64,000 nucleotides of DNA from Hemileia vastatrix (taxonomy: Eukaryota; Basidiomycota; Pucciniomycetes; Pucciniales; Zaghouaniaceae), in the NCBI GenBank assembly GCA_030280995.1, contig JASXTE010000012.1, forward strand, positions 10,148,001-10,212,000, in the 5' to 3' direction. The stretch's first letter is position 1. The number at the start of each line of letters is the position of its first letter. A program made the position numbers and the translations under genes. The notes under the pieces were generated by a model that saw only the letters and a program-made list of their open reading frames with translations, was not told the DNA's origin and made no database searches. Shown here piece after piece: positions 37,278 to 62,121 of this stretch.

Positions 37278-38167
37278 GATGAAGGCCCTCATTTTTTGGG
37301 GTAGGAAGGGCTGATCACTCTAATGTTGTAATCTCTCCTCAGGATGAGATCCCGGATTGCAATAGGTCAGCTCACTTGGAGATAATTCAAGTGGATTCTC
37401 AATTATTTTCTGTTAATATTACTTTGGAGTGCAAATACGTTTTGGACTTTTCTATATGTTTATTGGATTTACCCTGTTTTTCTATTAAATTTAAAAATGG
37501 TGAAAAAGGCAAAATGGGCCAAATTAGGTTGGATAAAAATTGGAAGGGTATGTTTTATGACCTCCAGCAAGAGGGTAAACTGCAAAAATCACATCAAAAC
37601 CCGATTAAAAATCTCAGTATAATTAAAACACAAAAAAATAATTTATGTGAAAATGTTATTCCAGACCTCCAGAACAAGGTTAAACTGCAAGTATCTCCTT
37701 CTATTATGGACCTCCAGAAAGAGGGTAAGCTGCAAATATCACATCAAAACCCGATTAAAAATCTCAGTATAATTAACACACAAAAAAATAATTTATGTGA
37801 AAATGTTATTCCGGACCTCCAGAAAGAGGGTAAACTGCAAAAATCTTATCAAAACCCAATTAAAAGTCTCAGTGTAATTAAAACACAAAAAAATAATTTT
37901 TGTGAAAATTCAATTCCGGTCCTCCAGCAAGAGGTTAAACTGCCAAGTTTCTTTACGGGTGATTTACTTTTGGATAAGGGAAGCAAAGGTGTTGGAAAAT
38001 CTATTTATAAATTAGACAAGGGAAAGGAGAAAAGGGTAAAATTTAAAAATGAAATAAAATATTTTTCTAATTTTTCTTATTTCGATTCTGACAATGAATA
38101 AGATTCATTTGATGAAATTTTTAATGGCGAAACAAAAGTAAATGTTTTACCTCAAGTTTATTTAGAT
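37278..38167 (+). pseudogene. Element Y pol N-terminal region with in-frame hairpin repeats
   Basis: Homologous to X from GGGCTGATCAC (37306) on: LEIIQVDSQL here, LEIYQVDFQL in X. From 37557 to 37945 five H1 hairpins occur in one frame, each read as DLQxEGKLQ or a variant. They lie within longer direct repeats that encode SHQNPIKNLSII-like text. The region ends in a Lys-rich stretch and a stop at 38099-38101, before the frame continues toward RT. It has no known domain. The nucleotide conservation of the repeats is greater than the protein role would suggest. Confidence 0.65.
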
Positions 38168-39837
38168 GTGGACGCAGCCAAATGTAAGAAAGTAGCAAAT
38201 AAAGTTCGACCTATTAATGAACCGCTACCTGCCGAATTAAATCCACACTTGAGAAGACCAAGGTTATCAAGAGATCCTTATGAAAGTCCCTTGGTAAAGA
38301 ATCCGCCTGAGTTTTTTGAGACGTCAAGAATCACTTTTGAGAGACTGGGTGTTGTTAATTTTGGACCTGATGGTTGGTTGTCTGGAGAAGAGAAGAAGTT
38401 GTTGTTGGATGTGATGGTCAAGCGAGAGAAGGCCATTGATTTTGTAGAAGAGGAGAGGGGTGTGTTGAAGCATTTCTATGGGGAGCCTTACAAGATTCCT
38501 GTGGTATGTCATGAACCGTGGCAGCAGAAACCAATTCCTATTCCGGCTGCATTAAAAGAAGCCTATATTGAAGTTTTCAGAGAATGGATACGCACTGGAC
38601 TGTATGAGCAATCAACTTCAAGTTATTCTAGTCCGGTATTTTGTATCATGAAACCGAATGGCAAGCTTAGAGTTGTTCATGATCTTAGGGAATGAAATAG
38701 GGTTACAATAAAGGATGCTGGGATACCGCCTAGTGCTGAGGAGTTTGTCAAAGCCTTTTCAGGGAGAGTGTTTTATGGTTTGGGAGATAATATGGGTGGA
38801 TATGATGAGAGAGAGTTACATCCGGACTCAAGGCCTCTCACTACATTCAATACGCCACTAGGACATTTACAGTTAACAAGATTACCTCAAGGAGAAACAA
38901 ATTTGGTTGCAGTTTATCAAGCTCAGATGGCTTGGATCTTCAAGACGAAATTCCACAATATGCTTGAATCTTTATAGATGATGGAGGAATTAAGGGACCA
39001 AAAACCGACTATGATAACCAGGTGTTGGAAGAGAATCCTGGGATATGCAAATTCATTTGGGAGTTTTCAATTACATTAGAAAGAATCTTGTTTTGAATTG
39101 AAGAGGCTGGTTTAACTATTTCAGGCTCAAAGTTTTCATGTTGTGTGCCAGCCTTAGAAATATTAGGCCATGTGGTATGTAGAGAGGGTAGGATTATGTC
39201 CAAGAAGAAAGTTAACAAAATTCAGTCCTGGCCAAGACCCAAGAATACGACCGAAGTCAGAGGGTTTTTAGGCGTTTGCGTATATGTTAGAATATTTATT
39301 AAGGACTTTTCTTCATCGGTAGCTCCATTGAGATGGTTAACAAGAAAGGATGCAGACTGGGAGTGGGATGAAGAGTGTGAGAAGGAGGTTGTGGGGAAAG
39401 ATTTAGTCCTGCACAAGTTTGATTATGTAAAAGATGCTAGCAGAATTTATTTAGCAGTTGATTCAAGTCAGGTTGCAGCTGGGGCGGTTTTGTCTCAGAT
39501 GGATAAAGCTGGTTACATCAGGCCGGTTAGGTATGAATCTGTAGTATTTACTGAGGTTGAATCAAGATATTCTCAACCAAAATTGGAATTATGTGGTGTG
39601 GCAAAAATACTAAAGAAACTTCAGCATATTTTGTGGGGGCAACATTTTGAGTTGCAAGTGGATGCGAAATTGTTAATCCAGATGATTAATTCCCCAAGTT
39701 TACCGAACGCACCCATGACAAGATGGGTAGCTTTTATTCAACATTTTTTGTTTGATTTAGTTCATAAGCCTGGCAAGACTTTTACTATGCCAGATGGTTT
39801 ATCAGGGAGACCACCCACTGAAGAAGATTCAGACTAA
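38168..39837 (+). pseudogene. Element Y reverse transcriptase-RNase H
   Basis: Aligns throughout with X: LVKNPPEF, GVVNFGPDGWLSGEEKK, YEQSTSSYSSPVFC, NGKLRVVHDLR (RT fingers), GLGDNMGGYDER, LTRLPQGETN. The catalytic FIDDGG block (near 38970) sits in a shifted frame. Stops lie at 38693 (TGA) and 38975 (TAG). After the frameshift, 39145-39837 gives the thumb (LGHVVCREGRIM, TTEVRGFLGVCVYVR) and RNase H (YLAVDSSQVAAGAVLSQ, RYSQPKLEL, VDAKLLIQM, MPDGLS). The lineage is the fungal Gypsy group with a YIDD- or FIDD-type active site. Nonfunctional. Confidence 0.85.
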
Positions 39838-41638
39838 GAAGAGTTCGATGAAGATATACCTATTATCAAAGCCAGCACTAAAGGAGCTGAAGACTTTCCA
39901 TACCTCCCCCATAAGGTTAAACTTGCAGGATTATTGTGTTTAGATTATGGTGATGATTACCTCCACCAAGAGGATAAACTGGAAAATAGTTTTTATGTTA
40001 ATAAAGGTGTTGGAAAAGGTGTAGATAAATTTGGTATAAAGGAAGTAGAAGAATATGTGGTGTATGTAGAGGAAGATGTATTGGTAGTGTGGGATAGTAG
40101 TAAGTTAAGGAATAGCGTATATGTTGGAGAATTAGAGAATTTAAATAAAAAGGTGGATAAAGAGAAAGAGGTATTTTTGTATACGGTTTACAAAAGATCC
40201 AAAGGTTCAGAAGAAAAATGTCAACATAGCTCGATTAAAGATTTATTTATGGGACAACACTTATTGGCTCATTCATGTGCAGGTGATATTGGTGATAGAG
40301 AAGTCCCTATTGATGTTATATTAATTGATTTTCAAGATGAAGTCTGGGGTCAGACTGGTTTTTATTTTTTTAGTCAAATATTTGTTGACTTTAGAGAGAC
40401 CAGAAGATTGTGAAGACGATGAATGGGTGGCTATCAAGAGGAAGTCATCTACATTTTACCTATCTGGTCGACGTTTAATGAGGAGAAGGTATCCAAATCC
40501 TCAAGTAGTTATAACTCAACAGAAGGGGCAAGAATTAGTTTTGAAATCACTGCATGAAGATCTTGGGCATAGAGGCGTTGGAGAAACGTTTAGATAAATT
40601 TCTGATTGATTATGGTGGCCTGGCATGAAGATGGCTGTTAAACAGTGGGTTCATTCATGTGAAGAATGTCAAAGACAAAGTTATTTAAGGCCAAAAGAAC
40701 CTGGACGCGCTACCGGAGAAAATACACTCTTTCGGAGAGTCAGTTTGGATGCTGTTCATATCAAAGAGGGACAGTATAAATATTTAATTGTAGCCAGAGA
40801 GGAATTATCTGGTTGGGTAGAGGCAGCGCCTCTTATTAATTTTACTGCCAAAAAAGTGGCAGAATTTTTGTTAAATAATTAGGTGTATTGATATGGAGTG
40901 ATGAAATTGGTGACAGTAGATGGAGGTCCTGAATTTGGGGCTGAGTTTAGAGAGGCTGTATCTAAAATTGGATCAAAGGTTAGGGTAGCAACCCCATATT
41001 ATCCTGAAGCTGAAGGCATGGTTGAAAGAGGGCATCAAGTTATTAAGGATGCTTTAGTTAAAATGTGTGGGACAAGTGCCGAAAAGTGGAGGCACTATTT
41101 ACCTTTAGTTTTATTTGCTGATTGAATCACTGCCAAAAGGACGACCAGATTTTCACCTTATGAACTTGTTTTTGGACAGAAAGCAGTTTTACCAGTTGAT
41201 TTAGAAGCTGAATCATATCTTGGAGTTGACTGGGACACGGTCAAAACTACTGATGAATTATTGTGTGCAAGAATGATGCAGCTAGAAAAGAAAGAAGAAT
41301 ATTTAGAAAAGGCATATTCTCGGATGATGAAGATCCAAAATAAATCAGTTAGATATTGGGATGAGCGGTTGGCAAATCGATTAAGGAAACCTTTGAACCC
41401 AGGAGATATGGTCTTGGTGTATAATAGGAGTTTGGAAAGTCAGTGGGGAAAGATGTTTGCAGATAGGTGGAATGGACCGTATAAAATCAAGGAGCAAGTT
41501 TCCGGCGGTTCATATGTGTTAGAAGAGTTGGATGGAGTTGAATTGAAGAAGAGGGTAGCGGCCGATCAAGTGAAACGGTTCTATCCTAGAGGCACCAGGA
41601 GTGCCAAAGTCTCCCTCCGCAATGAGGATAAACTATGA
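39838..41638 (+). pseudogene. Element Y linker and integrase
   Basis: Linker (39838-40330) with two H1 hairpins (39903, 39960). Then LTLERPEDCEDDEWVAIKRK, HEDLGHRGVGE and CEECQRQS form the zinc-binding HHCC. The integrase core has SLDAVHI (D), TVDGGPEFG (D) and EGMVERGHQ (E). The C-terminus reads VLVYNRSLESQWGKMFADRW and ends FYPRGTR at about 41605. Stops are at 39835, 40595, 40880 and 41123, and one frame change lies near 40330. Confidence 0.85.
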
Positions 41639-41774
41639 TATCGACGAAATTTTATGGATCCCTCCGCAATGAGGATAAACTATGACATTTATCAGATTTT
41701 ATTAACCTCCGCAATGAGGATAAACTATGATGTTTATAAAAATCTTATCAACCTCCACAACAAGGATAAACTAT
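41614..41774 (+). repeat. Four H1 hairpins directly after element Y pol
   Basis: CCTC-CGCAAT-GAGG-ATAAACTAT at 41614, 41661 and 41706, and a weaker copy (CCTC-CACAAC-AAGG) at 41752, spaced 45-47 bases. The first lies within the final pol codons. Confidence 0.8.
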
Positions 41775-41987
41775 CTTCTTTTTATCAAAATACTTTTCTA
41801 TCATTACACTGCATATGGGCAACGAAACTGTGATGAAACTTAACGAAATGCAAGAAAACCTTCTTTGAAATTTTTGAAATTTAAAATTCTTAAAATATGG
41901 GTGAAGATAGTGTTGGAAAAATTTATAAAAATTTATTGGAAGAAGTGTTCACAGGGGAACCTTCTTAATTTAAATATTGGCAAGTGT

Positions 41988-42029
41988 GGGGGTAATTGAT
42001 GGGCTGGCTGCTCTATACACAATTACCCC
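41988..42029 (+). other. H2 hairpin, element Y
   Basis: GGGGGTAATTG ... CAATTACCCC with the inner hairpin GGGC-TGGCT-GCTC. Compare X copies at 58764, 59022 and 61932, where TAACTG/CAGTTA replaces TAATTG/CAATTA. Confidence 0.7.
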
Positions 42030-42259
42030 ATAATTTTCGTTTCCAAAATTTTCCCTGTTTCTATTTGAATCCTGGCTTTGTCTTTTAATTATAGGAAGTC
42101 CACTAAGACTATAAACTGGAACGAATCAAGAGACAACGCTCTCAACTCCGGATTCAAGATTTATATATATATATATTTTTTTTTGATTTTGATTTTTTAT
42201 GTTAGATTGTGATTTCTTTCCTTTAAATATAAATTATGAATTATTGCAAAGGTGATGCT

Positions 42260-42309
42260 CACTGGTGGTCTCTAATCATTTTTATAAATTGGAGGGAGCC
42301 CACCCAGTG
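42260..42309 (+). other. H4 hairpin, element Y
   Basis: CACTGGTGG ... CCACCCAGTG closing over TTTTTATAAATT. Same 50-base layout as X 59207-59256. Confidence 0.65.
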
Positions 42310-42383
42310 ATCATCATTATAAAATTATCTTCTAAAAACTTTCATTTATTTTCTTTTCTTTTCAATTTCTCAAAATTGTGTAA

Positions 42384-42453
42384 CCACATCAAGTTGCACT
42401 TGGATGTGGGTATGATGTCGAGGGTACGGCTCATCAAATGGCCGGGGGGCATC
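42384..42453 (+). other. H3 double hairpin, element Y
   Basis: CCACATC-AAG ... CTT-GGATGTGG followed by GATGTC ... GGCATC around GGCTCATCAAATGGCC. Two copies in X (59454, 59639) have compensating changes in both stems. Confidence 0.65.
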
Positions 42454-42868
42454 TTTTGAAATTTTAATTTTGATAATTCTTTTTTTATTTCCTTTTTTAT
42501 CTTTCTTTTCACATTCGTTTATCTTTCTTTAAAATTAAATTTTAACTTTTATTTCAAAACTATCTTTTCTAAAATCTTTTATTTTAAATTAAAAAAAAAT
42601 AAAATTAAAATTAAAAATAAAAAAAAATAATAATAAAATAAAATAAAACAAAAAATAATAAAAAAATAAAAATAAAATAAAAAAATAAAATAAAAATAAA
42701 AAATAAAAATAATAAAATGAAAAAATTAATTAATTAAATCAAAATTATTATATTTCATAGTTTTATTTTTCAGTCTTCATTCTTTTTAGTGTTATTCAGT
42801 TAGTTTAGAGAGGAAACAGGGTCTAAGGGAACTCAATACCTATGGGATTTTTCTTCAATATTTCTGTT
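42454..42868. other. AT-rich tract in element Y post-pol region
   Basis: T-rich to about 42560, then A-rich AAAATAAAAT runs to about 42740. No gene. Confidence 0.6.
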
Positions 42869-43596
42869 AGTCCTCCAAGACTTTAAACTGGCTACTGTTC
42901 AAGACTTTCCTTAAGGTTTTATACAAATTTTGGAGCTGTTAGTCCTCCAAGACTATAAACTGGCTACTGTTCAAGACGTTCTTTAAGGTTTTTTATACAA
43001 ATTTTGGAGCTGTTAGTCCTCCAAGACTTTAAACTGGCTAATTTTCAAGACTGTCATTAAAAATTTTATATTGGAGCTTTTAGTCCTTCAAGACTTTAAA
43101 CTGAATTTCAAGGATGTTCAAGATTTTATGGATATTTTTAGAGAAGGGTTCTAGGATAGAGAAGTTGTTAGGTCCACCAAGACCTTAAACTGGACTATTA
43201 TCAAGTTGTTGGGTCCCCCATGACCTTAAACTGGATTTCTTATCGATCAAATGTTTGGTCCATCATGACTTTAAACTGGTAGTTCATTCATTGTTTTAGT
43301 CCACTATGACCTTAAACTGGAAAATTAATATCTGCAGGAAAATTCAACATTCATTGGTCCACTATGACATCAAACTGGATTATCAAGTTTATTTAATCTT
43401 TGGTCAAGCCTAGGCCTTACTTAAGAATATTTCAAGTTATTTATCCACTTAAACGATCTTTGGTCCACCAAGACCATAAACTGGAAATCGATTATATGTT
43501 TGGTCCACCAAGACTTTAAACTGGAATGTCAATCTTGTTTGGATAATTCAATTCAATCTTTTAATTTATCACTGTCCACTAAGACTCTAAACTGGT
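42869..43596 (+). repeat. H1 hairpin array, element Y
   Basis: Twelve H1 copies: 42869, 42941, 43015, 43082, 43171, 43212, 43257, 43298, 43356, 43462, 43502 and 43573, with an earlier one at 42097. Stems are AGTC/GACT in the first part and mostly GGTC/GACC or GGTC/GACT later. The loop is six bases (mostly CTCCAA, CACCAA, CACTAT) and the tail is TAAACTGG. Spacing is irregular (40-106 bases) and the intervening text differs, so this is not a simple tandem repeat. Confidence 0.85.
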
Positions 43597-44081
43597 TATT
43601 CAATCATTTCTGGAATTGGGTGCTGATAAGCTTTAGGAGGTTAAAATTTTAGGTGGTGATGATGCTAACAAAAGCATAATGGTTAATTAGGTGAAATTTG
43701 GGCGCTTTAACATGGTCTAAAGTTAATATTAGGGGGTATCAATGTTGACCGATCCGCAATTAAATTAATTGCGGAGAATAATCTTCATACCCCAATTATC
43801 TTCCACAATTATTTTTGCTAATAATTGGGTTATTAGACACTTTATGTGTCAATGTTCACCTCTTATCTGACATTTTTATCCTCAATATTTGATAACCACA
43901 TCTTGGACAACTTTCTGGATATCCCAGCCTTCTACCTTGCTGCGCACTTCCATTCTCATCCCATCCTGTTCATTCTATCCGCTCAGAATTTCTCCCCATT
44001 TCATCTATTTGATTCTGCTCCTTTTCATCTCGCTATCTCATCTGCTTGTTTCTGCTCCTTTTCACCTTCATTTATAATAAC

Positions 44082-45426
44082 ATGCCTCATCATCCTAGAT
44101 CTTCTCAAAGGCAGTTATCACCCAGTTGTTCTTCAATTCCCAATACTTCCTCTTTCCCCCGCTCAGCTGAGAAATCAAAGACCGTTCAATTAAAAAAAGA
44201 TGAACATCTCATTCTTATCAACTGGCTGAAAACCAAATCTAACTATGATTCTTGTTTTGGTACTGAGTATGCCACTAAAGTAGGACGGCCCCCCACATCA
44301 AAAATTAATGGCTATCTTCTAATGGCAAATGAATTACGGAATAAGACCAAAGGAAGGATTGATCTTTTGCCTAAACAGATGTCTGAACGATTCAAGCATT
44401 ACCGAGAAAAATACAAGAAGGCAAAGGCTCTTTCATCTTCCACTGGTTTTGGGGGTACCGACAACAATATAACTAAGGGCATAAAATCCATAGACGATAA
44501 ACTTGAAACTTTATGTCCTTACTTTAAAGAGATGGATGCAATTTTTGGAGAGCGAGCCAATGTTAATCCTGTAAACATGTTGGATGTTGAAGATCCTATC
44601 TACAAAAATGATGTCGAAGAAAAACTTTTCCCATCCTCTTCCTCCACTCAAGCCTCCCCTCTTCTAAATTCTACAAATATAGATAGCTTTTCTATTGATC
44701 CTATTGACTTTTTAACCTAACCCAATCTAACTCAGGTCTGTTTTTTTTCTTTTATCTTATCAATACTTTTTTTTATTTACTTAGATTTTCTTATTTCTTA
44801 AAAGGCTGATGAACAAGCCCAGGACCCACAATCAACTGAGTCTGAAGCTAGTGACAATGATGAGGAGAAAAATATGACCTTGAAAAAGAAGCTTAGGGCT
44901 TCAAGTAGTCTATATTTCCACTCCCAAAGAAGACAAAAAAGTGATACTTCATCACAAACCCCTTTTTCTTTGATGGAACAGTTTTTAGAGAAACGTGATG
45001 CTGGTAAGTGATATCATACCTATTAATACTTTACTCTGCTTTTCTTCTACTTATTGTTAGCATTGCTTATCACTCTAGAAAAAGTGGAAGCTGCTAAAGA
45101 GACTCTAAAGTTTGAAAAGCAAAAAATGAGCTCTCTTTAAGGAGGGATGATAGGCTACAAGATTTGGAAGAGAGGAAGTACGAGCTCTCTTTACGGAAGG
45201 ATGATTGGGCCCAAGATTTGGAGGAGAAGAAGTTTAAGTTAACTCTAAGTATTGAAAAATCAAAAAAGAGGAGAAAACACTCAAACATTGAAACCTATTA
45301 GAGCAGATGAAATATAAGTTTGATCATGAAGAAAATTCCAAAAAGAAAGATTTCTTGATAGAATGTGTTAAAGCTAATAAATCTGTTGAGGAAATTGAAC
45401 GTTTAAAGAAATTGTTGGATGACTAG
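44082..45426 (+). pseudogene. Harbinger Myb/SANT-like DNA-binding protein
   Basis: ATG 44082. Exon 1 contains the trihelix/Myb-like block WLKTKSNYDSCFG, GRPPTSKINGYLLMANEL, QMSERFKHYREKYKKAKAL, then GIKSIDDKLETLCPYFKEM and FGERANVNP. This is the partner protein usual in PIF/Harbinger elements; it helps bring the transposase to the nucleus and DNA ends. A TAA (44718-44720) precedes a probable intron ending near 44803. Exon 2 is acidic (TESEASDNDEEKN). An intron starts at 45005 (GTAAGTG) and ends CTCTAG at about 45079. The last exon is a charged coiled coil with an internal duplication (ELSLRRDDRLQDLEER, ELSLRKDDWAQDLEEK) and frameshifts. It ends at TAG 45424-45426. Confidence 0.75.
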
Positions 45427-45599
45427 TTTGTTTTATTTCTCTCACACTTCAACTGTTCATATTTATTTGTACATAAAATTTACAATAATTTCCTGTATTT
45501 CATTACTCTATCAATCATTACTTGAATTTTAATATTTTAATGTTAAATATTCTTTTTTTAAATAAAATTTTCATGTCTCCTTTGAAAATTTGATGATCC

Positions 45600-46015
45600 C
45601 CCACCCCTGTATTTTTTTGAAGTAAGGGGTGGGTATCACAAAAATTCTTTCATATCATGAATCTTGAAAGTCTTATATGAAAATTTGGCTTTACTACCTC
45701 CTGCATTTTACTGGTATCCCAAAAATTCTTACATGTCAAGAATTTCACAAGTCTTAAAAGAAATTTTGGCAAAACCCCCCATGAATTTTATTGAAGTAAG
45801 GGATGGGTATCACCAAAAAAATTTCACCAAAATATTTACAAGTCAAAAAAATTCTATATCTGTTTTAGAAAATTGGCAATACTCTCCCCTGCATTTTATT
45901 GAAGCAAGGGGTGGGTATCACCAAAATTTTTCTAAGTCATCAATTTCACATGTCAGATTTGAAAATTTGGCAATACCCCCTCTTCATTTTATTGAAGTAA
46001 GGGGTGGAAGTCATC
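45600..46015 (+). repeat. Tandem ~100-bp repeats inside Harbinger H
   Basis: Four to five imperfect units, each with GAAGTAAGGGGTGGGTATCA or a variant, then AAAATTT and CCCCTGCATTTTATT-like text. They lie between the Myb-like gene and the oxygenase gene. Confidence 0.65.
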
Positions 46016-46993: not shown

Positions 46994-47029
46994 CAATATA
47001 AAAATGTGAAATAAGACAAGTGAAATTTG

Positions 47030-51978: not shown

Positions 51979-51996
51979 TGGTGCCCAATGTGGGGA
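51979..51996 (+). promoter_or_regulatory. Element X primer-binding site
   Basis: TGGTGCCCAATGTGGGGA, four bases after the LTR. Corresponds to TGGCGCCCAACATGG in Y. Confidence 0.75.
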
Positions 51997-52065
51997 AGAA
52001 CTTGCTAGTTCTTTGGAATCTCTGTTTTCTTTGTTTGTCTCTTTTTCGTGTTTTGGACTGGAAGA

Positions 52066-53520
52066 ATGGCTTTTGGTTCTGCTATTCCTGTGGTGACTGC
52101 CAGTGGGGGGGATGGTCCTCCTTCTGTGATGGTTAGGGAGTGTGTGAGGATTAAAACTTGGGATGGTACCAAGTTTAATGGGGAGGATGTCAAGTGGTTT
52201 CTAGAGAAGTATGAAACTGCTGCTGGAGTGGATGGTGATTCCTACCTGGACATGGTGAAGCTGATTATCTTCTTCATTGGTGATAGATCAGTGGAGAAGG
52301 AGATTGTGGCTATGTCTGGCTACAAGAAGAGGGATTGGAAATTGTTGTGTAGGGAAATGGTGGATAGATGGGGTGTCAGGTTCACTATGGTGGATCTGAA
52401 CAGGTTTGTCAGTGAATGGCAATCTTATGGTGGTGTTGGTAACTTACATAGTTACAGGAAGTTTCTGCTACAGTTTGATCCTGTGGTGGAATATTTGGTG
52501 GAAGTGGAGGAGCTGGCACATGAAAATGCTGCAAAAGATGTTTTTTGGTCTGCCCTGGCTAGAGATTTCAGGATGGATGTGTTGAAGGAGTTGTCAAGAA
52601 AGGAATTGATGAAAAGTCTTTCTAATGGGGATCAGAAGTTTACTGCCTTGGATAAGGTGAAGGAGGCTGTTGAGGCCCATTTGAAGTTATTGGCTGTGGA
52701 CACCTATCAGGAGGGGTGTGCCAAGTATGTCAGCAAAGTCAGTGAGGCTTTGGCTGAAGAGGAAGTTAGGGAGAAGAAGGAGGAGAAAAATTTGGTGCAG
52801 GTTCCCAAACAGGAGAGGGACCCAATGGTGGAGCAGTTGGCTGATCTTACAAAGCAGCTGCACATCTTTGTTCAGGAGGCTAAGAAGGTTAATAAGGCAC
52901 CTTCTCAGCCTAGAGATTTTGAAAGGAGGGCTGGTAGGAGTGATCCTTGGGTTTGCTCTTATTGCAGTAGGAGGGGGCACAGGTCCAATGATTGTTGGGC
53001 ACTGAACAGAGATGTGTCTGAAGGAAAAGTGGAGTTTGATGGCAGGGTTTTTAAGTTCCCTGATGGTTCTTTTGTGAAGCCCAGTGAGGGGCAGGCTCCT
53101 GTGGATTTGGTCAGGAGAAGGGGTGATCTCAATTAAAAGAGGCCAAGGTTTGAGGAGATTCCTGATCAGGGGAAGTCTTCTGTTAAGGTAGATGAGGACG
53201 TCAAGGGAAAGGGGAAGGAGGTCAATAACGTCTCTTTTTCTACTTCCTTTGGTGGTTTGGAGTTGTATTCTTGTGGTGGAAAGTCAAGTGGTGAATGCTT
53301 GGCTGGTGTTTATGATGTGGAAGCAGGAAAGGTGGGAAGGCCTAAGAGCAGTTCTCAGGCCCAACCAAGGCCAAACGCTTCAAAGGTGGATCCTAAGCTG
53401 AGTGCAGCTAGGAAAAGGTACAGCAAAGAGGAGCTGTACAAGATGTAGAAGGGTATGGCTGATATGGGCCCCCCTAGTTTTGGTGCATTGGACATGAATG
53501 GTGAGCCAATGCCAATGGAC
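52066..53520 (+). pseudogene. Element X gag
   Basis: ATG 52066 chosen over the upstream in-frame GTG because it matches Y's start. Capsid-like region: WDGTKFNGEDVKWFLEKYE, MVDRWGVRF, EVEELAHENAAKDVFW. Intact zinc knuckle CSYCSRRGHRSNDC (52954-52995). Stops lie at 53134-53136 and 53446-53448, and a frameshift lies near 53520, where Y reads EPMPEDDSDSEEDVP. Confidence 0.82.
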
Positions 53521-54439
53521 TGACTCTGAGGAGGATGTCCCTTTGGCTTCATTGCCAAAGCCTCCTGGATTTAGAGGTTCTGGTGAGGGATCTGGTTTGG
53601 TTCCTGTTAATGGTAAATCTGTTGGTGGTTCTGGTCCTCAAGAATTTTCTAGGACCAAGGTGGTGAAGCAAAGAGCTCACTTTGAGAGGCCAGTAGTGTC
53701 TGGTCAAGTTAATGTTATGGACTCTGTCCTGGAAAGGATGAATCACGGTCAGGTTTCCCTATCTTATGGGGAATTGTATGCTATCAGTCCAAGGTTGGCT
53801 GATAGACAGAAAAAGTTGTTGACCAGGAGAAGAGTTTCTTCTGGTGAGGTAGAATACATTTGTGATTCTGCTGAAAAGTTTGTTGAGGGTTTGGAAACTC
53901 ATTTTTCTGCTCCTCTGGGATATGTCAATGTCACTCTGAATGGCAGGGAGGCAAGGGCATTGGTGGATTCAGGTTCTCAGATAAACCTGATTTCTTTGTT
54001 TGAGGCAACTCATATGGGCCTCCCCATCAAAACTGGTATTGGTGGGAATTTGAGAGGGATTGGTGGTCATGTCACTTAATTCGTTGGAACTTCAGAGTTT
54101 GTGAAGTTAGATGTTGGCGGAGCCTCAGGGAAGGTTCATTTTTACATTTCTAAAGGTAATGTAAAAGCAGTTTTGGGTGGGCCATTCTTGATGGATTTTC
54201 AGGCAAGAATTGGTTATCAATTTGATTTGGGAATCAGTTTGGAGTTTACTGGTGAAGATGAAAGGAGACTTCACATGAGGTTGTCATCCCCTGGAGAGGA
54301 TGGTTGGGAGACCAGGCCTGGTTTATCTTTAATGTGCCAGTGCATGGACTGCTGCAGGAGAAGGAAGGAAGTGGGTGCTGCCTCTAGTTTTTTGGAGTGC
54401 GGCTCAGGCTCTATTGAGAGTCTGTATTTTTTAGAGTAA
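53521..54439 (+). pseudogene. Element X protease region
   Basis: SEEDVPLASLPKP, then AYISPRLAD-like text (ELYAISPRLADRQKKLLTRR). The aspartic protease ALVDSGSQINLIS has an intact catalytic Asp (53966-53968). GGPFLMDFQARIGY and RRLHMRLSSPGEDGWE follow, then a C-terminal Cys cluster, CQCMDCC. One TAA at 54077-54079 interrupts it. The frame ends at TAA 54437-54439, overlapping the next ATG. Confidence 0.8.
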
Positions 54440-54441
54440 TG
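54437..54441 (+). promoter_or_regulatory. TAATG stop-start overlap between protease and pol frames
   Basis: The protease frame stops with TAA, and ATG begins on its last base, opening MRADHPSAKTSPQDEE. This layout suits coupled termination-reinitiation. In Y the same place reads TAGGAAGG, so the overlap is lost there. Confidence 0.45.
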
Positions 54442-55317
54442 AGGGCTGATCACCCTAGTGCTAAAACCTCTCCCCAAGATGAGGAAATCCCAGGTTGTAG
54501 TATGTCAGCTCCCTTGGAGATATACCAAGTGGATTTTCAACTTTCTCTTTTTAATGTTTCTCTTCTCTGCAAGTATTCATCAAGTTTTTTATCAAGTCTC
54601 TGTTCTCTCTCAAGATTCTTAATTATTTTTAATTCAAGTTCAAAGAAGAAGATTGGTTATATATCTTTATTGAAAGATATGCGGAAAAGTTTTGGGGCGG
54701 TGAGATTGGGGTCTAAAAGTAAGTCCTCCCAATTGTGCACCGCTAGGGTTTCTTCTACACCTTTCAAAAACATTACCTGGGCCACACCTGTGAGCATTGG
54801 TGAAACCCCTGGTTTTTTTTGTAGGTCAGAAGAAAACTCAAGAAAAGAAGATAAAAATTTCAAGATAATTCATGAAAATCAAGAAAAAAAATCTGAAGAT
54901 AATGAAGAAAGAAGATACAAAATATTTTTGTGAAGATCGTCAAGATCTATTTTTGGGCTTCCAGTATGAGGTTAAACTGCAGAAAATTATGAAGAGAGAA
55001 GATCATCAAGATCAATTTTTGCGCCTCCAGCATGAGGATAAATTGCACAATTTTAGAAGATGTGATTCAGCAGATGAATCAAGATTTCAAGATTTGGAAG
55101 TTGGAAGTGAGGATGAAGATGTGAATTTGCGGAAAAGTTTTGGAGTGGTGAGATTGGGGTGTAAAAGTAAGTCCTCCCAATTGTGCACCGCTAGGGTTTC
55201 TTCTACACCTTTCAAAAACATTACCTTGGCCACACATGTGAGCAATGGGGAAACCCTTGGTTTTTGTTCCAGGTCTGGTGGTGAAGATTTCCTGAAGATC
55301 CCTCAAGTTGAAGGTGG
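54439..55317 (+). pseudogene. Element X pol N-terminal region with 146-bp duplication
   Basis: Begins LEIYQVDFQL (homologous to Y). A 146-bp segment (54680-54825: GCGGAAAAGTTTTGG ... GTAGGTC) is repeated at 55128-55274 with few changes. H1 hairpins are at 54958 and 55024, read in frame as LGFQYEVKLQ and LRLQHEDKL. The frame changes once near 54880. Confidence 0.65.
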
Positions 55318-57040
55318 AGCGGCAAAGTATAAGAAGGTAGCGCAGAAGATTAGGCCTGTCAATGAGCCTATGCCTGTGGCCTTGTATCCGCCCTTGAAGA
55401 GACCTCCTTTGTCAAGAGATCCGTACTGTACTCCTTTGGTGAAGAATCCTCCAGAATTTGTAGAGACGGCTAGGGTGACCGTGGAAAGATTGAAAGTTGT
55501 TAATTTTGGTCCTGATGGGTGGTTGTCTGAAGAAGAAAAGAAGTTGTTGTTGCACGTTATTGTGCTAAGGAAAGAAGCTGTGGCTTTTGTTGAGGAGGAA
55601 AGGGGTGTATTGAAACACTCTTATGGGGAACCTTACTTGATTCCTGTGGTTTCCCATGAACCTTGGCAAATCAAACCTTTTCCAATTCTAGCCGCTATTA
55701 GAGAGGATTTTGTAGAGATTGTTAGGGAAAGAGTCAGGACTGTGTTATATGAACAATCAACATCCAGTTACTCAAGTCGGGTGTTCTGTGTAAAGAAGAA
55801 GAATGGAAAGTTGTGGGTGGTTCATGATCTTAGAGCCTTGAATAGAGTCACTATCAAGGACGCTGGTATGCCACCAAGTGCAGAGGATTTTGTTGAATCT
55901 TTCGCTGGAAGGGTGTGTTATGGTTTAGGTGATATTATGGGTGGTTATGATGAGAGGGAACTCCATACGGATTCAAGGCCTCTCACAAATTTTGAGACTC
56001 CTTTGGGAAGATTTCAGCTCACTAGGTTGCCTCAAGGAGAAACTAATTCAGTGGCAGCTTATCAAGCACAGATGGCTTGGATTTTGCAGGATGAGGTTCC
56101 TACTCATGCTGGTATTTTTATTGATGATGGTGGAGTTAAAGGACCATCCACTGATTATGGTAATGAGGTGTTAGCGGAGAACCCTGGCATAAGGAGGTTT
56201 GTGTGGGAATACGCAATAACTCTAGAGAGAGTGTTGTTTAGGATTGAAGAGGCTGGTTTGACCATTTCAGGGTCAAAATTCTGTTGTTGTGTCCCTGCTT
56301 TGGAAATTCTGGGTCATGTGGTATGTAGAGAGGGAAGGATTATGGCGAAGAAGAAGATTAATAAAATCCAGTCATGGCCAAGGCCTAAAAATACTACTGA
56401 AGTCAGGGGATTTTTGGGTGTATGTGTATATGTCAGGATTTTTATTAAGTATTTTTCTTTGTTGGCTTCACCTTTAAGGAAGTTGACCAGAAAAGATGCA
56501 GATTGGGAATGTACTGAAGAGTGTGAAGAGGCTTTTCAGAAATTGAAAAATGTTGTTGGTGAAGATATTGTTCTTCACAAGTTGGATTTTGGTGTTGGTT
56601 CTGGAAAAATTTATCTGGCAGTGGACTCAAGTTATATTGCTGCTGGTGCTGTTTTTTCTCAGGAGGATTAGACTGTGAGGGTCAGGCCAGTAAGATATGA
56701 GTCTGTGGTGTTTAATGAGGTGGAATCTAGGTATTCTCAACCTAAGTTGGAATTTCGTGGCATAGCTAAAATTTTAAAGAAGCTACAGACGGTTTTGTGG
56801 GGGCAGCATTTTGAGCTGCAGGTGGATGCAAAATCTTTGGTTCAGATGATCAATACACCTAGTCTTCCAAATGCTCCAATGACTAGGTGGGTGGCATTTA
56901 TTCAACATTTTTCTTTTGACCTGGTACACAAACCAGGTAAAACTTTTACTATGCCTGATGGATTATCAAGGAGGCCACCTACAGATGAAGATTCTGAGGC
57001 TGAAGAGTTTGATGAGGATTTTCCAGTGGTTAGAGCCAGC
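55318..57040 (+). pseudogene. Element X reverse transcriptase-RNase H
   Basis: Fingers: YEQSTSSYSSRVFCVKKKNG, VVHDLRALNRVTIKDAG. Palm: GLGDIMGGYDEREL, LTRLPQGETNSVAAYQAQ and the catalytic GIFIDDGGVKGP (near 56116). Then GIRRFVWEYAITLERVLFRI, LGHVVCREGRIM, TTEVRGFLGVCVYVR. RNase H: IYLAVDSSYIAAGAVFSQ, RYSQPKLEF, VDAKSLVQM, HKPGKTFTMPDGLS. Only one stop (TAG 56669-56671) interrupts it. Fungal Gypsy lineage with FIDD or YIDD. Confidence 0.87.
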
Positions 57041-58624
57041 ACAAAGGGTGCTGAAGATATTTCTGACCTCCCCCAAGAGGCTAAACTGGCTGGATCTGAT
57101 CTTGATTCTGGTGATCAGGATGTTTTTCTTGATGAAGATGGAGTTGTTGTTTGGGACAGCTCAAAATTGGAAAAGGGTGTTTTTGTTAGTGAACTGGATT
57201 CTCAAAAGGTTCAGTGGAAAGAGAAGGAGATGCCAAAATTTAAGGATTGGTGTCCTGGTTGGGCTGCTCAATTGGCTCATGTTCATACTGGTGATTTTGA
57301 TGACAGAATTGTACCCTTGGATGTGGTGTTTTTGGATTTTGAAGATGAGACCTGGGGTAAGTCTGGGTTTTATTTTATTTTGGTGGAATATCTGTTGACC
57401 TTGGAGAGGCCAGATAGTTGTGATGATGATACTTGGTTGGCAATCAAAAAGAAGATTCCTGGATTTCATGTGTTAGGAAGACAGTTGATGAGGAGGAGAC
57501 ATCCGAATCTTCAAGTGGTGGTGACTCAGAAGAAGGGTTAAGAATTGGTTTTGAAGTCTTTGCATGAAGACCTTGGTCATAGAGGCTTTGGGGAGACTTA
57601 TAGAAGAGTAGCAGACAGATTTTGGTGGCCAGGTATGAAGTTGGCTGTGCAGGGTTGGGTTCAATCTTGTGAAGAGTGTCAGAGAAGAAGCCACTTGAAA
57701 CCTAAAGAGGTGGGCCGTGCTACTGGTGAATCAACTGTTTTTGGAAGGTTCAGTCTGGATGCTGTCCATATTAAAGACGGCAGGTATAAATACTTGATTG
57801 TTGCTAGGGATCATTTGTCTGGTTGGGTTGAGGCAGTGCCTCTGGTTAATTTGACTGCCAAGAATGTGGCAGAGTTTTTGAAGAAGGAGTGGATTTATAG
57901 GTATGGGTTGATGAAGTTGGTCACTGTTGATGGTGGGCCAGAGTTTGGTGCCGAATTCAAAGAAGCTGTGGCTAGTGTTGGTTCTAAAGTTAGAGTGGCT
58001 ACACCTTATTATCCTGAAGCTGAAGGCATGGTTGAAAGAGGCCATCAAGCTATCAAGAATGCTTTGGTGAAGATGTGCGGAGATAGTGCTGAAAAGTGGA
58101 GGCATTATTTACTCTTAGTGTTATTTGCTGATAGGGTCACTGTGAAGAGGACAACTGGCTATTCTCCTTATGAGTTCATGTTTGGTCAGAAAGCTGTTCT
58201 ACCAGTGGACTTAGAAGCTGTCTCTTATCTGTGAATTGATTGTGATGACGTGCACTCAACAGAAGATTTGCTCTGTGCCAGGATGCAACAGTTGGAATGT
58301 AGAGAGGAATGTCAAGAGAAGGCTTACTCTAGAATGATGAAGATTAGGAATCAATCAGTCAGGTACTGGGACAAGAAGTTGGCTCATAGACTCAGGAATC
58401 CCTTGAAACCTGGTTGTTTGGTTTTGGTGTATAATAGAAGTTTGGAGAGTCAGTGGGGGAAAATGTTTGCTGACAGATGGAATGGACCTTACAGAGTCAG
58501 ATCTCAGGCGTCTGGAGGTTCTTATGTTTTGGAAGAGTTGGATGGTGCAGTCTTGAAAAAGAGGGTGGCTGCAGACCAAGTGAAGAGGTTTTATCCCAGA
58601 GGCACTAGGCATGAAGAAGATTGA
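57041..58624 (+). pseudogene. Element X linker and integrase
   Basis: H1 hairpin at 57067 (DLPQEAKLAG). Linker to LTLERPDSCDDDTW. TAA at 57539-57541. HEDLGHRGFGE ... CEECQRRS is the zinc region; FSLDAVHIKDG, TVDGGPEFGAEF and EGMVERGHQAI give D, D, E. TGA at 58232-58234. The C-terminus reads VLVYNRSLESQWGKMFADRW and ends FYPRGTRHEED at TGA 58622-58624. No chromodomain is seen. Confidence 0.87.
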
Positions 58625-59156
58625 CTCCGCAATGAGGATAAACTATGGAACGTTCTTTTTTGTTTTTGAATTTTGTGGTGTTGCAGAGCAACTTTTGTGT
58701 TGGAAACTTTTGTTAGAAGGTACCCATGGGTGGGGCTTCTAGATTTGATCTTGGAAAGTGTATGGGTAACTGATGGGCTGGCTGCTCTATCAACAGTTAC
58801 CCCAGATTGTCTGTTTCTAACCCTTTATCTTAATTTGGTTGAACCCTAGTATTGGTTTCTTTTCACAGGTTTTAGTCCTCTATGACTTTAAACTGGAATT
58901 TCCTCTGGTTTTCATGTGCTGGTCTCTTCACTCTTATTGGTTTTGGTTTTTTTGTGTTGGATGTGGTGTTTTTGTTAGAAGGTACCCAGGGGGGGCTTCT
59001 AGATTTTATTTTGGCAAGTGTGGGGGTAACTGATGAGCTGGATGCTCTGTAGAACAGTTACCCCAGAATGTCTGTCCCAAGTTTTTTGTTTTTCCTAGTT
59101 GAATTCTAGTTCTGTTGTTTATTATTCAGGTTTCAAGTCCACTATGACTTTAAACT
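58624..59156 (+). repeat. Post-pol H1 and H2 hairpins, element X
   Basis: H1: ACTC-CGCAAT-GAGG (58624), AGTC-CTCTAT-GACT-TTAAACTGG (58874), AGTC-CACTAT-GACT (59136). H2: GGGTAACTG...CAGTTACCC at 58764-58803 and again at 59022-59064, where the inner stem is a perfect GAGC/GCTC. Both H2 copies are preceded by GGTACCCA and GGGGCTTCTAGATTT, a module of about 100 bp. Confidence 0.75.
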
Positions 59157-59206
59157 AGTTCGGGACTGGCTTCTTTATCTTTGGGTTTTTTAGATTGGTG
59201 GTGGAT

Positions 59207-59256
59207 CACTGGTGGTCTCCCATCATTTTTACTTATTGGAGGGAGCCCACCCAGTG
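59207..59256 (+). other. H4 hairpin, element X
   Basis: CACTGGTGG ... CCCACCCAGTG, extended by GAT before and ATC after. Matches Y 42260-42309. Confidence 0.65.
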
Positions 59257-59453
59257 ATCATTTCTATGGATCTGACTTTCCCTTATTGGACCATCTATGG
59301 AGCTGGACTGTCTTTGATTTTGCAGTTATGTTTTTTTTTTTTTGCTAGATAGCAGTTTTAGATTATTTTCTTTTTTCTCTTTTTTTCTTTTAATTTTTTA
59401 TGAGGGTTGTTTAAAATTGTAAAAACAAAAATATAGGGTGTTACCACATCAGG

Positions 59454-59512
59454 GTCACCTGGATGTGGGCAAGCATTGGTGGGGAAAGGCTCATCAATTG
59501 GCCGGGCAATGC
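59454..59512 (+). other. H3 double hairpin, element X copy 1
   Basis: CCACATC-AGG ... CCT-GGATGTGG, then GCATTG ... CAATGC around GGCTCATCAATTGGCC. The AGG/CCT pair replaces AAG/CTT of the other copies. Confidence 0.65.
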
Positions 59513-59638
59513 TATTTTCTTTTTTATTTATTATTTATTTCATGTGTTTCGGTGTTTCATTATTTTTATTATCTTCTGAATTTCTAAATTTTTTGAATTT
59601 TGTTTTCTGTTAATCATTTTAGGGATTTAATTGTGTAT

Positions 59639-59708
59639 CCACATCAAGGTGCACTTGGATGTGGGTAAGGTATCAAGGGATCAGCTCATCAATTGGCTGG
59701 GGGATACC
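59639..59708 (+). other. H3 double hairpin, element X copy 2
   Basis: CCACATC-AAG ... CTT-GGATGTGG, then GGTATC ... GGATACC around CAGCTCATCAATTGGCTG. The T-rich 59709-59874 beyond holds nothing else recognised. Confidence 0.65.
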
Positions 59709-59874
59709 ATTTCTATTATTTTTTTTATATTATATCTTATTTCATTTATTTTATTTCATTTTATTTATTAATTTTTAATTTTAGTATATTAGTAGACATC
59801 AAAAAAAAAAATCTGAAATTATTTTTTATTAATTGTCTTATATTATTATTATGTTTCTAATCTTTTGCAGGAGC

Positions 59875-61426
59875 TCATTGTCTGGATGATGAAGCTTCTG
59901 GAGGCTGGTCTGGATTGTGATGAAGTTTTTGTTTTTTGTTAGGATTGTGGGAAGCACTGTGTTCTTTGAAGTGCATCCTGCTGGAGAGATTATAGGGATT
60001 GTAATTATCAGGAATTGGATTAGAGGGAAGTTCAGAGGAGGAAGAAGAAGAGGCAGGAATGGAGTGCTGGAGGGTGTGCTTAATGATCCTAGACATTTTC
60101 CAGTGGTTGTCCAGTAGGCGCTTTCTCAGGGATTTTTCAAATTCATTCAAAGGTCCATGGAGGGCGAAGGCTTTCAGCATGTTGAAACACATGGTGCTTA
60201 GGTGTTTTTTCATGTCTCCATAATCCAGGGTCAAAGAAGTTTCAAGAGGTTGGCCAACTCGAATAATAGATTCAGGAGGAGGGGTGCCAACTAGACAAGA
60301 AGAATTGGATCAGTAATTATTTTTGTTGAAGAAATGAGATAATTAATTTGGTACTTACAGATTGGAAGCTTATCAAATCTGTAAGCAGCTGGGATTTGGA
60401 TCTCTGACAATTTTGTAATGGTCATAGTGGGTGGATCAACTAGGGAGAGATATGGATTCTCATGGTCTTCCTCTGAAAGATTTTGAGAAGGTGAACTAGG
60501 AGGCTGATGTTCCTGGGGCCTAGTTGGAGCAGTGAGATTTTTGTTGTTGTTGTGGTTGTTATTTCTGTTGGATTCAGCTGGAGGAGGTGATGGTGATGGA
60601 GTACCAGGGTTGTTAAAGGATGGAGCAGGAGATGGGGATTTGGAAGCAGATTGATCTCTTTTGGATGGAGATTTTGAAGAGATGGAACTGTCAGAAGATT
60701 AGTTGGCTGACAGAGGAGAGGTGTAGTTTCTTTGACTTAGTTGGGGACGAAGTTGTTGTTTGGGTGCAGCGTGTGGTGTTCTGGTTTCTTCTTGGGGTTC
60801 TCTGGCAGGTCTCTTAGAAATCTGGGAAATTTTGGTGCTTTTTGACTTTGGAAGAGTTGATTGCATTGCTCTGGGGGCAGTAGGAGGTAGTTGGGTTGAG
60901 TTGTTATTGTTGCCTGGATGAATTTGGCTGTTTACTGGCCGTTTTTGGAGGTTTTGGCCCTGATTTTCACTGTTTGGTGAGGCGGGCGGGCCGCCTGGAC
61001 GCGGTCTAGAAGCCTGGGAGTTGATCTTGAAGCTTTTGGAGCTAATTTGACGGAGATAAAAGCAGTTTCTTGGGAAGCTAAGGCTGGTCTTTTGGGAAGA
61101 GTTCTGGAAGCAGAGCTTCTGGATCTTCTGGAAGGTGCTGAAGATAAAGAGGAAGAGGAAGGACCAAGCTCTGGGGATCTAGTAGGGGATCTAGAGATGT
61201 ATTTGTGAGAAGGTGAAGGAGGAGGAATAGGGAAGTTGGCATCTCTGTCACATCTTTTCTTTTTGGAATAGCGAGAATCCCAAGCCCTGTTGTAGAATTT
61301 GGATTCAGGAGTTGAAAGAGTGAATGTGCAAGGTCTGCACATGTGGATGCACTGTTTTCAGGCATAGTCCTTGGGAGCAGTGAAGCAAGGGAGAGTAGAA
61401 GGGTTAACATCAGGAGATCCAACCAT
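59875..61426 (-). pseudogene. Opposite-strand gene beta of element X
   Basis: From ATG 61426: an N-terminal Cys-containing segment (LPCFTAPKDYA, a TGA, KQCIHMCRPCTF) and a basic patch. A long Ser/Pro/Lys-rich low-complexity region follows with stops near 60932 and 60700. A 68-bp intron (60291-60358, GTAAGT to GTCTAG) is followed by a last exon (60290-59875) with a helical region, HLSTMCFNMLKAF, FEKSLRKRLLDNHWKM, and a Ser/Asn-rich tail. Not recognised. Splice signals and length suggest it was a real gene. Confidence 0.45.
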
Positions 61427-61577
61427 GATCTGTGGTGAGAAAAGATGATGAAAAGGGATAGGAGGAGATTTTTGTCAGTGATGGGTAGATGATGAAGTGA
61501 AGGTGGAAGTTCAGCAGGTTGGCTGTAGAGGTGTTCTGCATGAAATTGGCTGGGTCTATTTTAAGCAAAATTCTGGC

Positions 61578-62121
61578 AGTCCATTAAGACTCTAAACTGA
61601 AAAATCTATGGTAGCAAGATCAGTCCATCAAGACTCTAAACTAAAAAATCTATGGTATCAAGACCAGTCCATCAAGACTTTAAACTGAAATCTGGTTTCT
61701 GTAAGTCCTCCAAGACTTTAAACTGGCTGGTTTCAAGATTTTATCAAGATAGTCCGTCAAGACTTTAAACTGAACACTGTGTTAGTCCCCCAAGACTTTG
61801 AACTGAGGGTTTGAGTCCCCCAAGACTATAAACTGAGGAAAAAGGGCTTTGTTGTTGGAGTTGAGTTTGAAAGATTGGTGGAGGGTATCCACAGGGGGAG
61901 CCTCCGAATTTAGCAAAGGCAAGTTTGGCTGTAATTGATGGGCTGGCAGCTCTATTCACAATTACCCCAGAATGTTAGTTACTTCTCTAAATCTTTTTCT
62001 GGTTGATCTTTTGTTCTGGGTTTATGATTTAGGTTTTTGAGTCCCCCAAGACTTTAAAATGAGGGTTTTTGAGTCCCCCAAGACTATAAAATGAGGATGG
62101 TCCCCCAAGACTTAAAACTGA
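61578..62121 (+). repeat. H1 hairpin array with one H2, element X
   Basis: Ten H1 copies at 61578, 61622, 61666, 61704, 61751, 61784, 61814, 62040, 62072 and 62099. Stems are AGTC/GACT (the last GGTC/GACT), loops CATCAA, CCCCAA and similar, tail TAAACTGA or TAAACTGG. H2 lies at 61932-61969 (GTAATTG...CAATTAC). The array sits between the two opposite-strand genes. Confidence 0.82.

Follow-up and report, generated by a model that had tools for sequence, protein, structure and literature searches.

A 64,000-nucleotide stretch of the Hemileia vastatrix genome (contig JASXTE010000012.1, positions 10,148,001 to 10,212,000; the window hereafter) contains two Ty3/Gypsy retrotransposons, X and Y, in which a short sequence unit recurs many times, and this raises the question of what the unit is and what it does for its hosts. 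The initial annotation described a hairpin with a covarying stem, followed by a constant, single-stranded tail. The covarying stem was borne out, but the tail was found to covary with the loop and to pair with it as a second stem, and the constant-tail hairpin was therefore rejected. Judged from sequence comparison, the unit is very probably a 23-nt H-type RNA pseudoknot, present in many sense-strand copies in one group of Ty3/Gypsy elements.

Forty sense-strand copies in elements X and Y

Copies in the window were defined by 12 fixed letters, of which at least 11 had to match, whereas the outer two pairs of stem 1 (S1) and the outer two pairs of stem 2 (S2) were ignored. Using this rule, 40 copies were found on the plus strand and none on the minus strand, a total that agrees with the at least 40 recurrences originally proposed; X carries 24 of them and Y the other 16 (Table 1). 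The geometry first described (a 4-bp stem closing a 6-nt loop, one further nucleotide, then the tail, in which at most two mismatches were allowed) likewise matched 40 times on the plus strand versus 3 on the minus strand, and the individual stems CCTC/GAGG (37561, 41661), AGTC/GACT (42869, 61704) and GGTC/GACC (43171, 43462), as well as the G.U pairs at 43257 and 62099, were all present as reported. Searching for the hairpin together with loop letters C1 and A5 and the tail core TAAAC gave 33 matches on the plus strand, 2 on the minus strand and 5 in the reversed sequence, and 60 first-order Markov resamplings gave a mean of 2.0 and a maximum of 6. For the structure with TAAAC, C1 and a full S2, the counts were 22, 0 and 0, respectively, and 60 resamplings of the same order gave a mean of 0.4 and a maximum of 2; the hairpin with TAAAC alone was weakly telling (70 plus, 35 minus, 65 reversed; resampled mean 40.7).

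The copies lie outside gag and outside the Pfam domains of pol, in the linkers that separate protease from reverse transcriptase (RT) and RNase H from integrase, at the integrase end, and in the 3′ untranslated region (UTR), where 25 of the 40 are found beyond the end-of-pol copies; those of Y reach to ~750 nt short of the 3′ long terminal repeat (LTR). The spacing within elements is irregular, as noted initially, at 27–2442 nt, and this irregularity, together with the compensated changes described below, ruled out a plain tandem satellite, although local duplications do occur.

Table 1. Elements and pseudoknot units in the window (positions are those of the whole stretch; S1 and S2, stems 1 and 2).
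Feature	Position	Strand	Details
Element X, Ty3/Gypsy	28319..51361	+	LTRs 28319-29392 and 50335-51361, 91% identical
Element Y, Ty3/Gypsy: internal region and 3′ LTR	51361..63964	+	3′ LTR 62873-63964
X protease-RT coding linker, 5 copies	37561..37943	+	37561, 37666, 37711, 37816, 37921
X RNase H-integrase linker, 2 copies	39903..39982	+	39903, 39960; S2 only in 39960
X integrase end or just past it, 4 copies	41614..41774	+	41614, 41661, 41706, 41752
X 3′ UTR, single copy	42097..42119	+	directly 3′ of the TAG/G boundary after the large hairpin module 41974-42095
X 3′ UTR array, 12 copies	42869..43595	+	42869, 42941, 43015, 43082, 43171, 43212, 43257, 43298, 43356, 43462, 43502, 43573
DDE transposase gene (DDE_Tnp_4) nested in X (region 43700-50334)	48437-49210	-	Pfam
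Y protease-RT linker, 2 copies	54958..55046	+	54958, 55024; GTA/TGC and GCA/TGC
Y RNase H-integrase linker, 1 copy	57067..57089	+	CCA/TGG
Just past Y integrase, 1 copy	58624..58646	+	CGCAAT/TAT type; S1 3/4, S2 unformed
Y 3′ UTR, 2 copies	58874..59158	+	58874, 59136; large hairpin module precedes each
Y 3′ UTR array part 1, 7 copies	61578..61836	+	61578, 61622, 61666, 61704, 61751, 61784, 61814
Y 3′ UTR array part 2, 3 copies	62040..62121	+	62040, 62072, 62099; all CCCCAA loop, TGAGG tail

Covariation between tail and loop

The exact tail TAAACTGG occurs 15 times in the window, and its TAAAC core is nearly constant. Its last three letters, formerly taken as fixed, are TGG, TGC, TGA, TAG, TAA, TTG, TAT or TGA followed by GG, and they mostly track the loop: loop bases 3–5 and the three bases that follow TAAAC pair as CCA/TGG, GCA/TGC or TCA/TGA. 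The GCA/TGC form is found in the protease-RT linkers of both X and Y, in X at 37561 and 37921 with the middle S2 pair broken in the other three copies, and TCA/TGA is found in both 3′-UTR arrays. All 12 copies of the X array form three of three S2 pairs; in part 1 of the Y array, T-A, C-G and bulged TGAGG types are intermixed, and copy 61622 forms two of three. The four copies at or just past the X integrase end carry the loop CGCAAT or CACAAC and the tail TAT, with 4, 4, 4 and 3 of four S1 pairs, respectively, and S2 unformed. Overall, S2 was formed in 30 of the 40 window copies, plainly with three pairs in 25 and around a bulged A in 5, and in neither way in 10; redealing the tails among the 40 copies in 3,000 trials gave a mean of 16.2 and a maximum of 23.

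In addition to the window, 11 loci of 10 kb taken at fixed places in the genome were included; neither this enlarged set nor the window set was chosen by loop or tail. In the window and these loci together, 38 of 57 distinct copies formed S2 (shuffled mean 20.7, maximum 29), and among the 45 copies with a TGx tail the combinations of loop base 3 and tail base 8 were C-G in 18, G-C in 10, T-A in 6, C-A in 8 and others in 3. Across all 240 copies from 33 sequences, S2 was formed in 91 of 129 distinct 25-mers, compared with a shuffled mean of 57.2 and a maximum of 73 (5,000 shuffles), and the same two positions in distinct 23-mers gave C-G 36, G-C 10, T-A 19, C-A 20 and others 8; these class totals are not population frequencies, because loci L001–L008 and L079–L102 were mostly picked by the C/TGG or TGA pattern, which inflates those classes. 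The overlapping loci L002, L005 and L007 were excluded from the counts. A further set of 70 distinct copies from the window and 13 loci was selected blind to S2, with at least 3 of 4 S1 pairs required; in it 80.5% of the S2 cells were paired (shuffled 69.0%) and the covariation score was 0.288 (shuffled 0.149), neither value being reached in any of 500 shuffles, and slid S2 registers were paired in 6–30%. With G.U allowed, the three S2 pairs gave p values of 0.0003, 0.008 and 0.06 in 39 window copies. The 39- and 70-copy sets, and an 84-copy set used below, retain a few matches that are probably due to chance (in the window at 39197 and, on the minus strand, at 28729, and in L016), and all these shuffle tests overstate significance because the copies are related.

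Stem 1 and the predicted fold

The paired stem changes claimed at the outset were confirmed in 113 distinct 23-mers selected blind to the outer part of S1. The outermost pair was formed in 97 of them, the second in 103 and both in 89, with AT, CG, GC, GT and TA as outer pair types. In a set chosen with at least 3 of 4 S1 pairs and fixed inner pairs, 93.6% of the S1 cells were paired, a figure that is therefore partly built in. Compensatory changes were thus found in both stems, as expected of an H-type pseudoknot.

In the predicted fold, S1 would comprise 4 bp; the first loop (L1) would have 2 nt, a C and one free base; S2 of 3 bp would follow, then one junction nucleotide, mostly A or U, and the six-nt loop NUAAAC, which is rich in A, would run alongside S1. 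The conserved unpaired letters, loop C1 and UAAAC, would be expected to make tertiary contacts in such a compact pseudoknot; C1, A5 and UAAAC are near-constant, and were the letters used in selecting copies.

The largest class of apparent S2 mismatches combines the tail TGA with the loop CCCCAA (in some copies CTCCAA or CACCAA), which gives a C-A mismatch. In this class 35 of 38 distinct copies continue with GG after the tail, compared with 0 of 26 T-A copies (Fisher 6e-15, relatedness not discounted); within the window 5 of 5 do so, compared with 0 of 4. The GG extension offers the possible pairs A-U, C-G, a bulged A, and C-G, plus a further C-G where loop base 2 is C, so that S2 of the TGAGG type would have 3–4 bp around the bulge. 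Of the 100 TGA-tailed genome matches listed, 54 have T at loop base 3, 45 have C and 1 has G; in 39 of the 45, loop base 2 is also C.

Occurrence and orientation across the genome

In the whole assembly (747,610,610 bases, 791 contigs), one motif form, with at most two mismatches allowed, occurred 157,990 times (79,162 plus, 78,828 minus), compared with 3,454 times for the reversed pattern (1,735 plus, 1,719 minus), and the exact TGA-tailed form occurred 27,603 times (13,944 plus, 13,659 minus), compared with 9. Several units were present in three of the 11 fixed-place loci (L009, L010 and L019), and L016 held one likely chance match by a looser rule. In the window and in all 12 loci containing both units and pol (L001, L003, L004, L006, L008, L009, L010, L019, L081, L087, L090 and L091), the units lie on the pol strand. 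The unit is highly likely to act as sense RNA. A scan of viral contigs for one form of the motif returned 59 stretches with one match each, which were taken as chance. A more distant relative, L012, which is 62% identical in the RT stretch and is truncated by the end of the locus, lacks the unit in the linker between protease and RT. A known Rfam RNA was rejected as an identity for the unit, as cmscan of 37000–63000 with E values up to 5 gave two weak matches, neither on a unit.

Duplication and conservation of the units

Self-comparison revealed tandem duplications with shifts of ~44–47, 72 and 105–149 nt, in which neighbouring copies have flanks in common, and otherwise similar arrays hold 12 copies in the window, 13 in L008 and 15 in L082. 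The differing copy numbers and the common flanks indicate gain and loss by tandem duplication. A small selfish hairpin spreading within the element, one of the roles proposed initially, is therefore not favoured: the copies spread together with their flanks, which later diverged faster than the unit. In X, the last copy of the tandem family 42869/42941/43015/43082, at 43082, carries a C to T change in the loop and a G to A change in the tail, which yields T-A where its neighbours have C-G, and its counterparts in L008, L082 and L088 are also T-A.

The 3′-UTR array units were found to vary about three-fold less than the spacers of the same arrays. In X-type arrays of five elements, 14 of 299 unit columns were variable compared with 80 of 618 spacer columns (p 6e-5), and in Y-type arrays of four elements, 11 of 207 compared with 53 of 359 (p 5e-4). 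Pairing in S1 and S2, sense orientation, array conservation and placement were established by sequence comparison. Local tandem duplication would make the copies, and the 3′-UTR arrays would retain the units as their flanks drift.

Observations weighing against a conserved pseudoknot

Several observations weigh against this reading of the unit and its conservation. Neither version of S2 is formed in 38 of 129 distinct copies and in 10 of the 40 window copies, including all five TAT-tailed end-of-pol copies; the others are three CAGAA-TGC copies in X, 39903 and 61622, and these non-fitting copies may be decayed or serve otherwise. Two of five S2 pair measures were unremarkable, namely double-change pairs (reached by 26 of 500 shuffles) and further pair types (298 of 500). 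A control register pairing loop base 4 with tail base 8 gave, with G.U allowed, p 0.017 in the 39 window copies and 53 of 84 paired in the larger set (p 0.0003), and with Watson-Crick pairs only, p 0.07 in the 84 copies. The hairpins of six copies folded alone had z scores of -0.75 to +0.17 relative to shuffles, which is chance stability. Among copies with similar flanks, the S2 pair was unchanged in 908 copy pairs and double-changed with both paired in 21 (C-G versus T-A), while 10 were double-changed with one or none paired and 281 showed one-sided changes (C-A versus T-A 176, C-G versus C-A 24, C-G versus T-G 10, the remainder others). The C-A class behind most of these one-sided changes is read as the bulged type, and about three to four independent double changes at the pair of loop base 3 and tail base 8 were counted by eye. 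The end-of-pol units are not clearly kept, with 8 differences in 115 unit positions compared with 44 in 481 spacer positions (window versus L008).

These observations bear on the suggestion that the unit has no function and is simply a duplication-prone sequence, in which the likeness of copies would reflect recent duplication or recombination and the covariation a few inherited events. The clear tandem duplications in the arrays, the chance-level hairpin energies, the excess of one-sided over compensated S2 changes and the weak conservation at the end of pol all speak for it; the reduced variability of the 3′-UTR units relative to their own spacers speaks against it, and it leaves the compensated changes and the TGAGG rule unexplained. 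We regard it as improbable.

Also adverse is the ratio of G.U to A.C, which was even at 31 to 31 and, once the 15 cells of the bulged class were removed, 31 to 16 (23 to 16 on fewer copies, unfiltered). With the two so close, base-pair asymmetry gives the RNA strand little support, and it failed as a proof of that strand. This would suit a signal in double-stranded DNA, such as a cruciform or a protein site, and S1 alone is indeed an inverted repeat. Such a signal is nevertheless extremely improbable, and a DNA cruciform was rejected, as the S2 pseudoknot is a single-strand fold and the orientation to pol is fixed. We infer that the unit instead folds as a pseudoknot in the element RNA.

Copies within pol and the encoded peptide

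The unit can be translated in two of its three reading frames, TAA blocking the third, and the coding copies of X and Y share one frame, which encodes L-x-x-E-x-K-L or near variants (DLQQEGKLQ, DLPQEAKLAG, YLHQEDKLEN and SLRNEDKL). A loose pattern for this linker peptide matched 10 of 105 related proteins, most of the matches being in pol blocks and taken as unrelated; many of the 105 stop short of the linkers, and ten sequences were inspected. LRNExKL was found in what appears to be the same protease-RT linker of two proteins that align there, P0057 near residue 89 and P0074 (Puccinia coronata) near residue 78, and is similar to LRNEDKL, the peptide specified by the CGCAAT unit where X pol ends; in P0081, LRNDIKL occurs close to the start of the protein. 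A search for further carriers with residues 70–200 of P0057 returned only P0057 itself. The occurrence in related rust elements hints that the unit is perhaps older than Hemileia.

The common frame and the shared LRNExKL could mean that selection acts on the peptide, for example as protease sites between pol domains, with the RNA pairing a by-product and the 3′-UTR copies strays. S2 is formed, however, in 24 of 25 3′-UTR window copies compared with 6 of 15 in or at the end of pol; with covariation intact in the untranslated copies, this explanation is strained, and we consider it distinctly improbable. By contrast, a selected RNA pseudoknot would suggest structured RNA inside protein linkers, and the pol linker peptides may themselves be a by-product of RNA selection.

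The host elements and neighbouring features

Both X and Y have LTRs and an aspartic protease, RT, RNase H and integrase in the order of Ty3/Gypsy elements; Pfam and tblastn placed protease to integrase in Y and gag to integrase in X. The order in Y is a gag frame at 52009, protease at 53498, RT at 54869, RNase H at 56672 and integrase at 57542–58621, and the pol DNA of X and Y is ~74% identical by self-comparison. X and Y were correctly named as carriers of the unit, but self-comparison showed them to be nested: X sits inside the 5′ LTR of Y and cuts it into 27836–28312 and 51361–51974. X itself contains an insertion at 32119–37272 whose 190-bp ends are identical to each other, and its DDE_Tnp_4 gene is probably part of a DNA transposon. 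A CCHC knuckle, CSYCSRRGHRSNDC, was recognized by eye in the Gag of Y; a Pfam scan gave no match to it.

A copy of the unit had also been proposed at 13225 in a more divergent remnant, Z. Its stem CCTC/GAGG is present, but with the loop TTCAAA, the tail AAAAAC-TAA and one of three S2 pairs it is unproven as a unit. Past the integrase end of Z there are two weak hairpins, 13195 and 13225, with AAAAAC tails and two and one of three S2 pairs, respectively, possibly a diverged or ancestral form of the unit.

A second conserved module is found in the 3′ UTRs at 41974–42110, 58748–58890, 59008–59155 and 61913–62055. Its hairpin is at most 10 bp long (GGGGTAAYTG ... CARTTACCCC) and has an inner GRGC/GCTC stem and one compensatory pair, U-A to C-G, and ~65 nt further on YAG/G stands immediately before a pseudoknot copy; with its GTAAY start and YAG end, the module looks like an intron with the 5′ splice site in the stem. 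Both 3′ UTRs have a third conserved long hairpin, TCACTGGTGG ... CCCACCCAGTGA, at 42240–42325 and 59195–59275, with no double change between these two copies. The 3′ region of Y also contains six antisense open frames of 135–179 aa on the minus strand, at 59875–61560 and 62408–62947; the three of them that were scanned had no Pfam match, and the frame at 62408 is cysteine-rich with a CxxC...CxxC pattern.

Possible roles of the units

A signal bound multivalently by protein best fits the many copies, their single strand, their presence in coding as well as untranslated sites, and numbers that tolerate loss. We therefore read the unit as a pseudoknot that is probably a multivalent recognition signal for one protein, with the element's Gag as the first candidate, and assign this overall reading a probability of about 0.5. 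In the mechanism proposed, the copies would jointly mark the full-length RNA for packaging or assembly through one protein, Gag with its CCHC knuckle being considered first and host factors next. That they are Gag-bound packaging or assembly signals is a tentative proposal drawn from analogy, consistent with multiple copies of a shared motif dispersed along the RNA. Retroviral packaging signals are usually in the 5′ leader and gag region; no unit was found in the 5′ leader or gag of Y within the window, which counts against a classical packaging signal.

The pseudoknots might instead recruit a host factor for export, translation or stability of the long RNA, as pseudoknot domains in the 3′ UTRs of certain plant RNA viruses do; such a role would suit the 25 window copies in the 3′ UTR beside other conserved hairpins. 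Consecutive 3′-UTR pseudoknots are known from the upstream pseudoknot domain of tobacco mosaic virus (TMV), as far as the accessible literature describes it, although a 3′-UTR mode cannot apply to the pol-linker copies. We see this as possible but rather doubtful. Less likely still is that the units are road-blocks that slow translation between pol domains or reverse transcription close to the 3′ end. Their stem lengths, 4 bp for S1 and 3 bp for S2, match those of luteoviral frameshift pseudoknots in the available text (PMC3835772), and the coding copies lie between domains. No slippery heptamer was seen by eye upstream in the flanks inspected, no systematic scan having been made; moreover, most window copies are past the pol stop, one mechanism would not suit both places, and a frameshift cassette as the sole role was rejected on account of the copies after the stop.

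If the units are indeed a multivalent recognition signal, a whole Gypsy group might carry a multivalent pseudoknot code, with 16–24 copies per element (in two whole elements) and ~150,000 genomic copies, which duplication would have carried along the 3′ UTR and as far as the pol linkers, serving together as a packaging signal; we advance this as a conjecture, with the balance against it. In either case, a repeated short pseudoknot with natural compensatory variants offers a ready set of ligands and mutants for Gag and a series for the study of minimal pseudoknots.

Comparison with known systems

No earlier report of the unit was found in the accessible literature on rust fungi, on Gypsy and retrotransposon pseudoknots and on Hemileia Gypsy elements. 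Multi-copy viral pseudoknots are already known; what is unusual here is the host, number and placement of a multi-copy pseudoknot.

The closest likeness in fold is to the luteoviral frameshift pseudoknots, for which the consulted parts of the literature give an S1 of 4–5 bp, an S2 of 3 bp and extensive loop-stem contacts (PMC3835772), and, for beet western yellows virus (BWYV) and its relatives, a minor-groove triplex (PMC7618472). The unit has the same stem lengths and compactness as the H-type P1-P2 pseudoknots of BWYV, potato leafroll virus (PLRV), pea enation mosaic virus 1 (PEMV-1) and sugarcane yellow leaf virus (ScYLV), as these sources portray them. In luteoviral pseudoknots, as in the unit, L1 begins with C and the crossing loop is rich in A. 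The unit differs in occurring 24 times in X and 16 times in Y, mostly past the pol stop, in a fungal retrotransposon, so that the luteoviral likeness explains its fold and not its job. The preQ1-I riboswitch is another small H-type pseudoknot with an A-rich tail, but is bacterial, single-copy and built around a ligand core.

With regard to function, in foot-and-mouth disease virus (FMDV) the pseudoknot region is, according to the text available, a packaging signal, with more signals elsewhere in the genome (PMC11734982; model PMC6281560). Such dispersed packaging signals resemble the units in having multiple structured sites, but the units are in the 3′ UTR and the pol linkers. The FMDV pseudoknots lie 5′ in a picornaviral RNA. 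The TMV-type upstream domain, to the extent that accessible sources describe it, is like the unit in consisting of small 3′-UTR pseudoknots. It has few copies, with stems other than those of the unit, and belongs to tobamoviral RNA.

Among LTR retrotransposons, Ty1 has a 5′ pseudoknot in which a major Gag binding site was mapped, while a role in encapsidation was not demonstrable, in the portion of the report available (PMC4974528); like the unit, it is a pseudoknot in LTR-retrotransposon RNA, and unlike the unit it is single, long-range and at the 5′ end. Sireviruses, with their multiple polypurine tracts and RM boxes, share with X and Y the presence of many short conserved motifs in non-coding parts of the element, although their boxes, as presented in the accessible text, which mentions no pseudoknot, are palindromes, mostly with a CGG-CCG core, located in the LTRs and upstream of env in the copia superfamily (PMC2829016).

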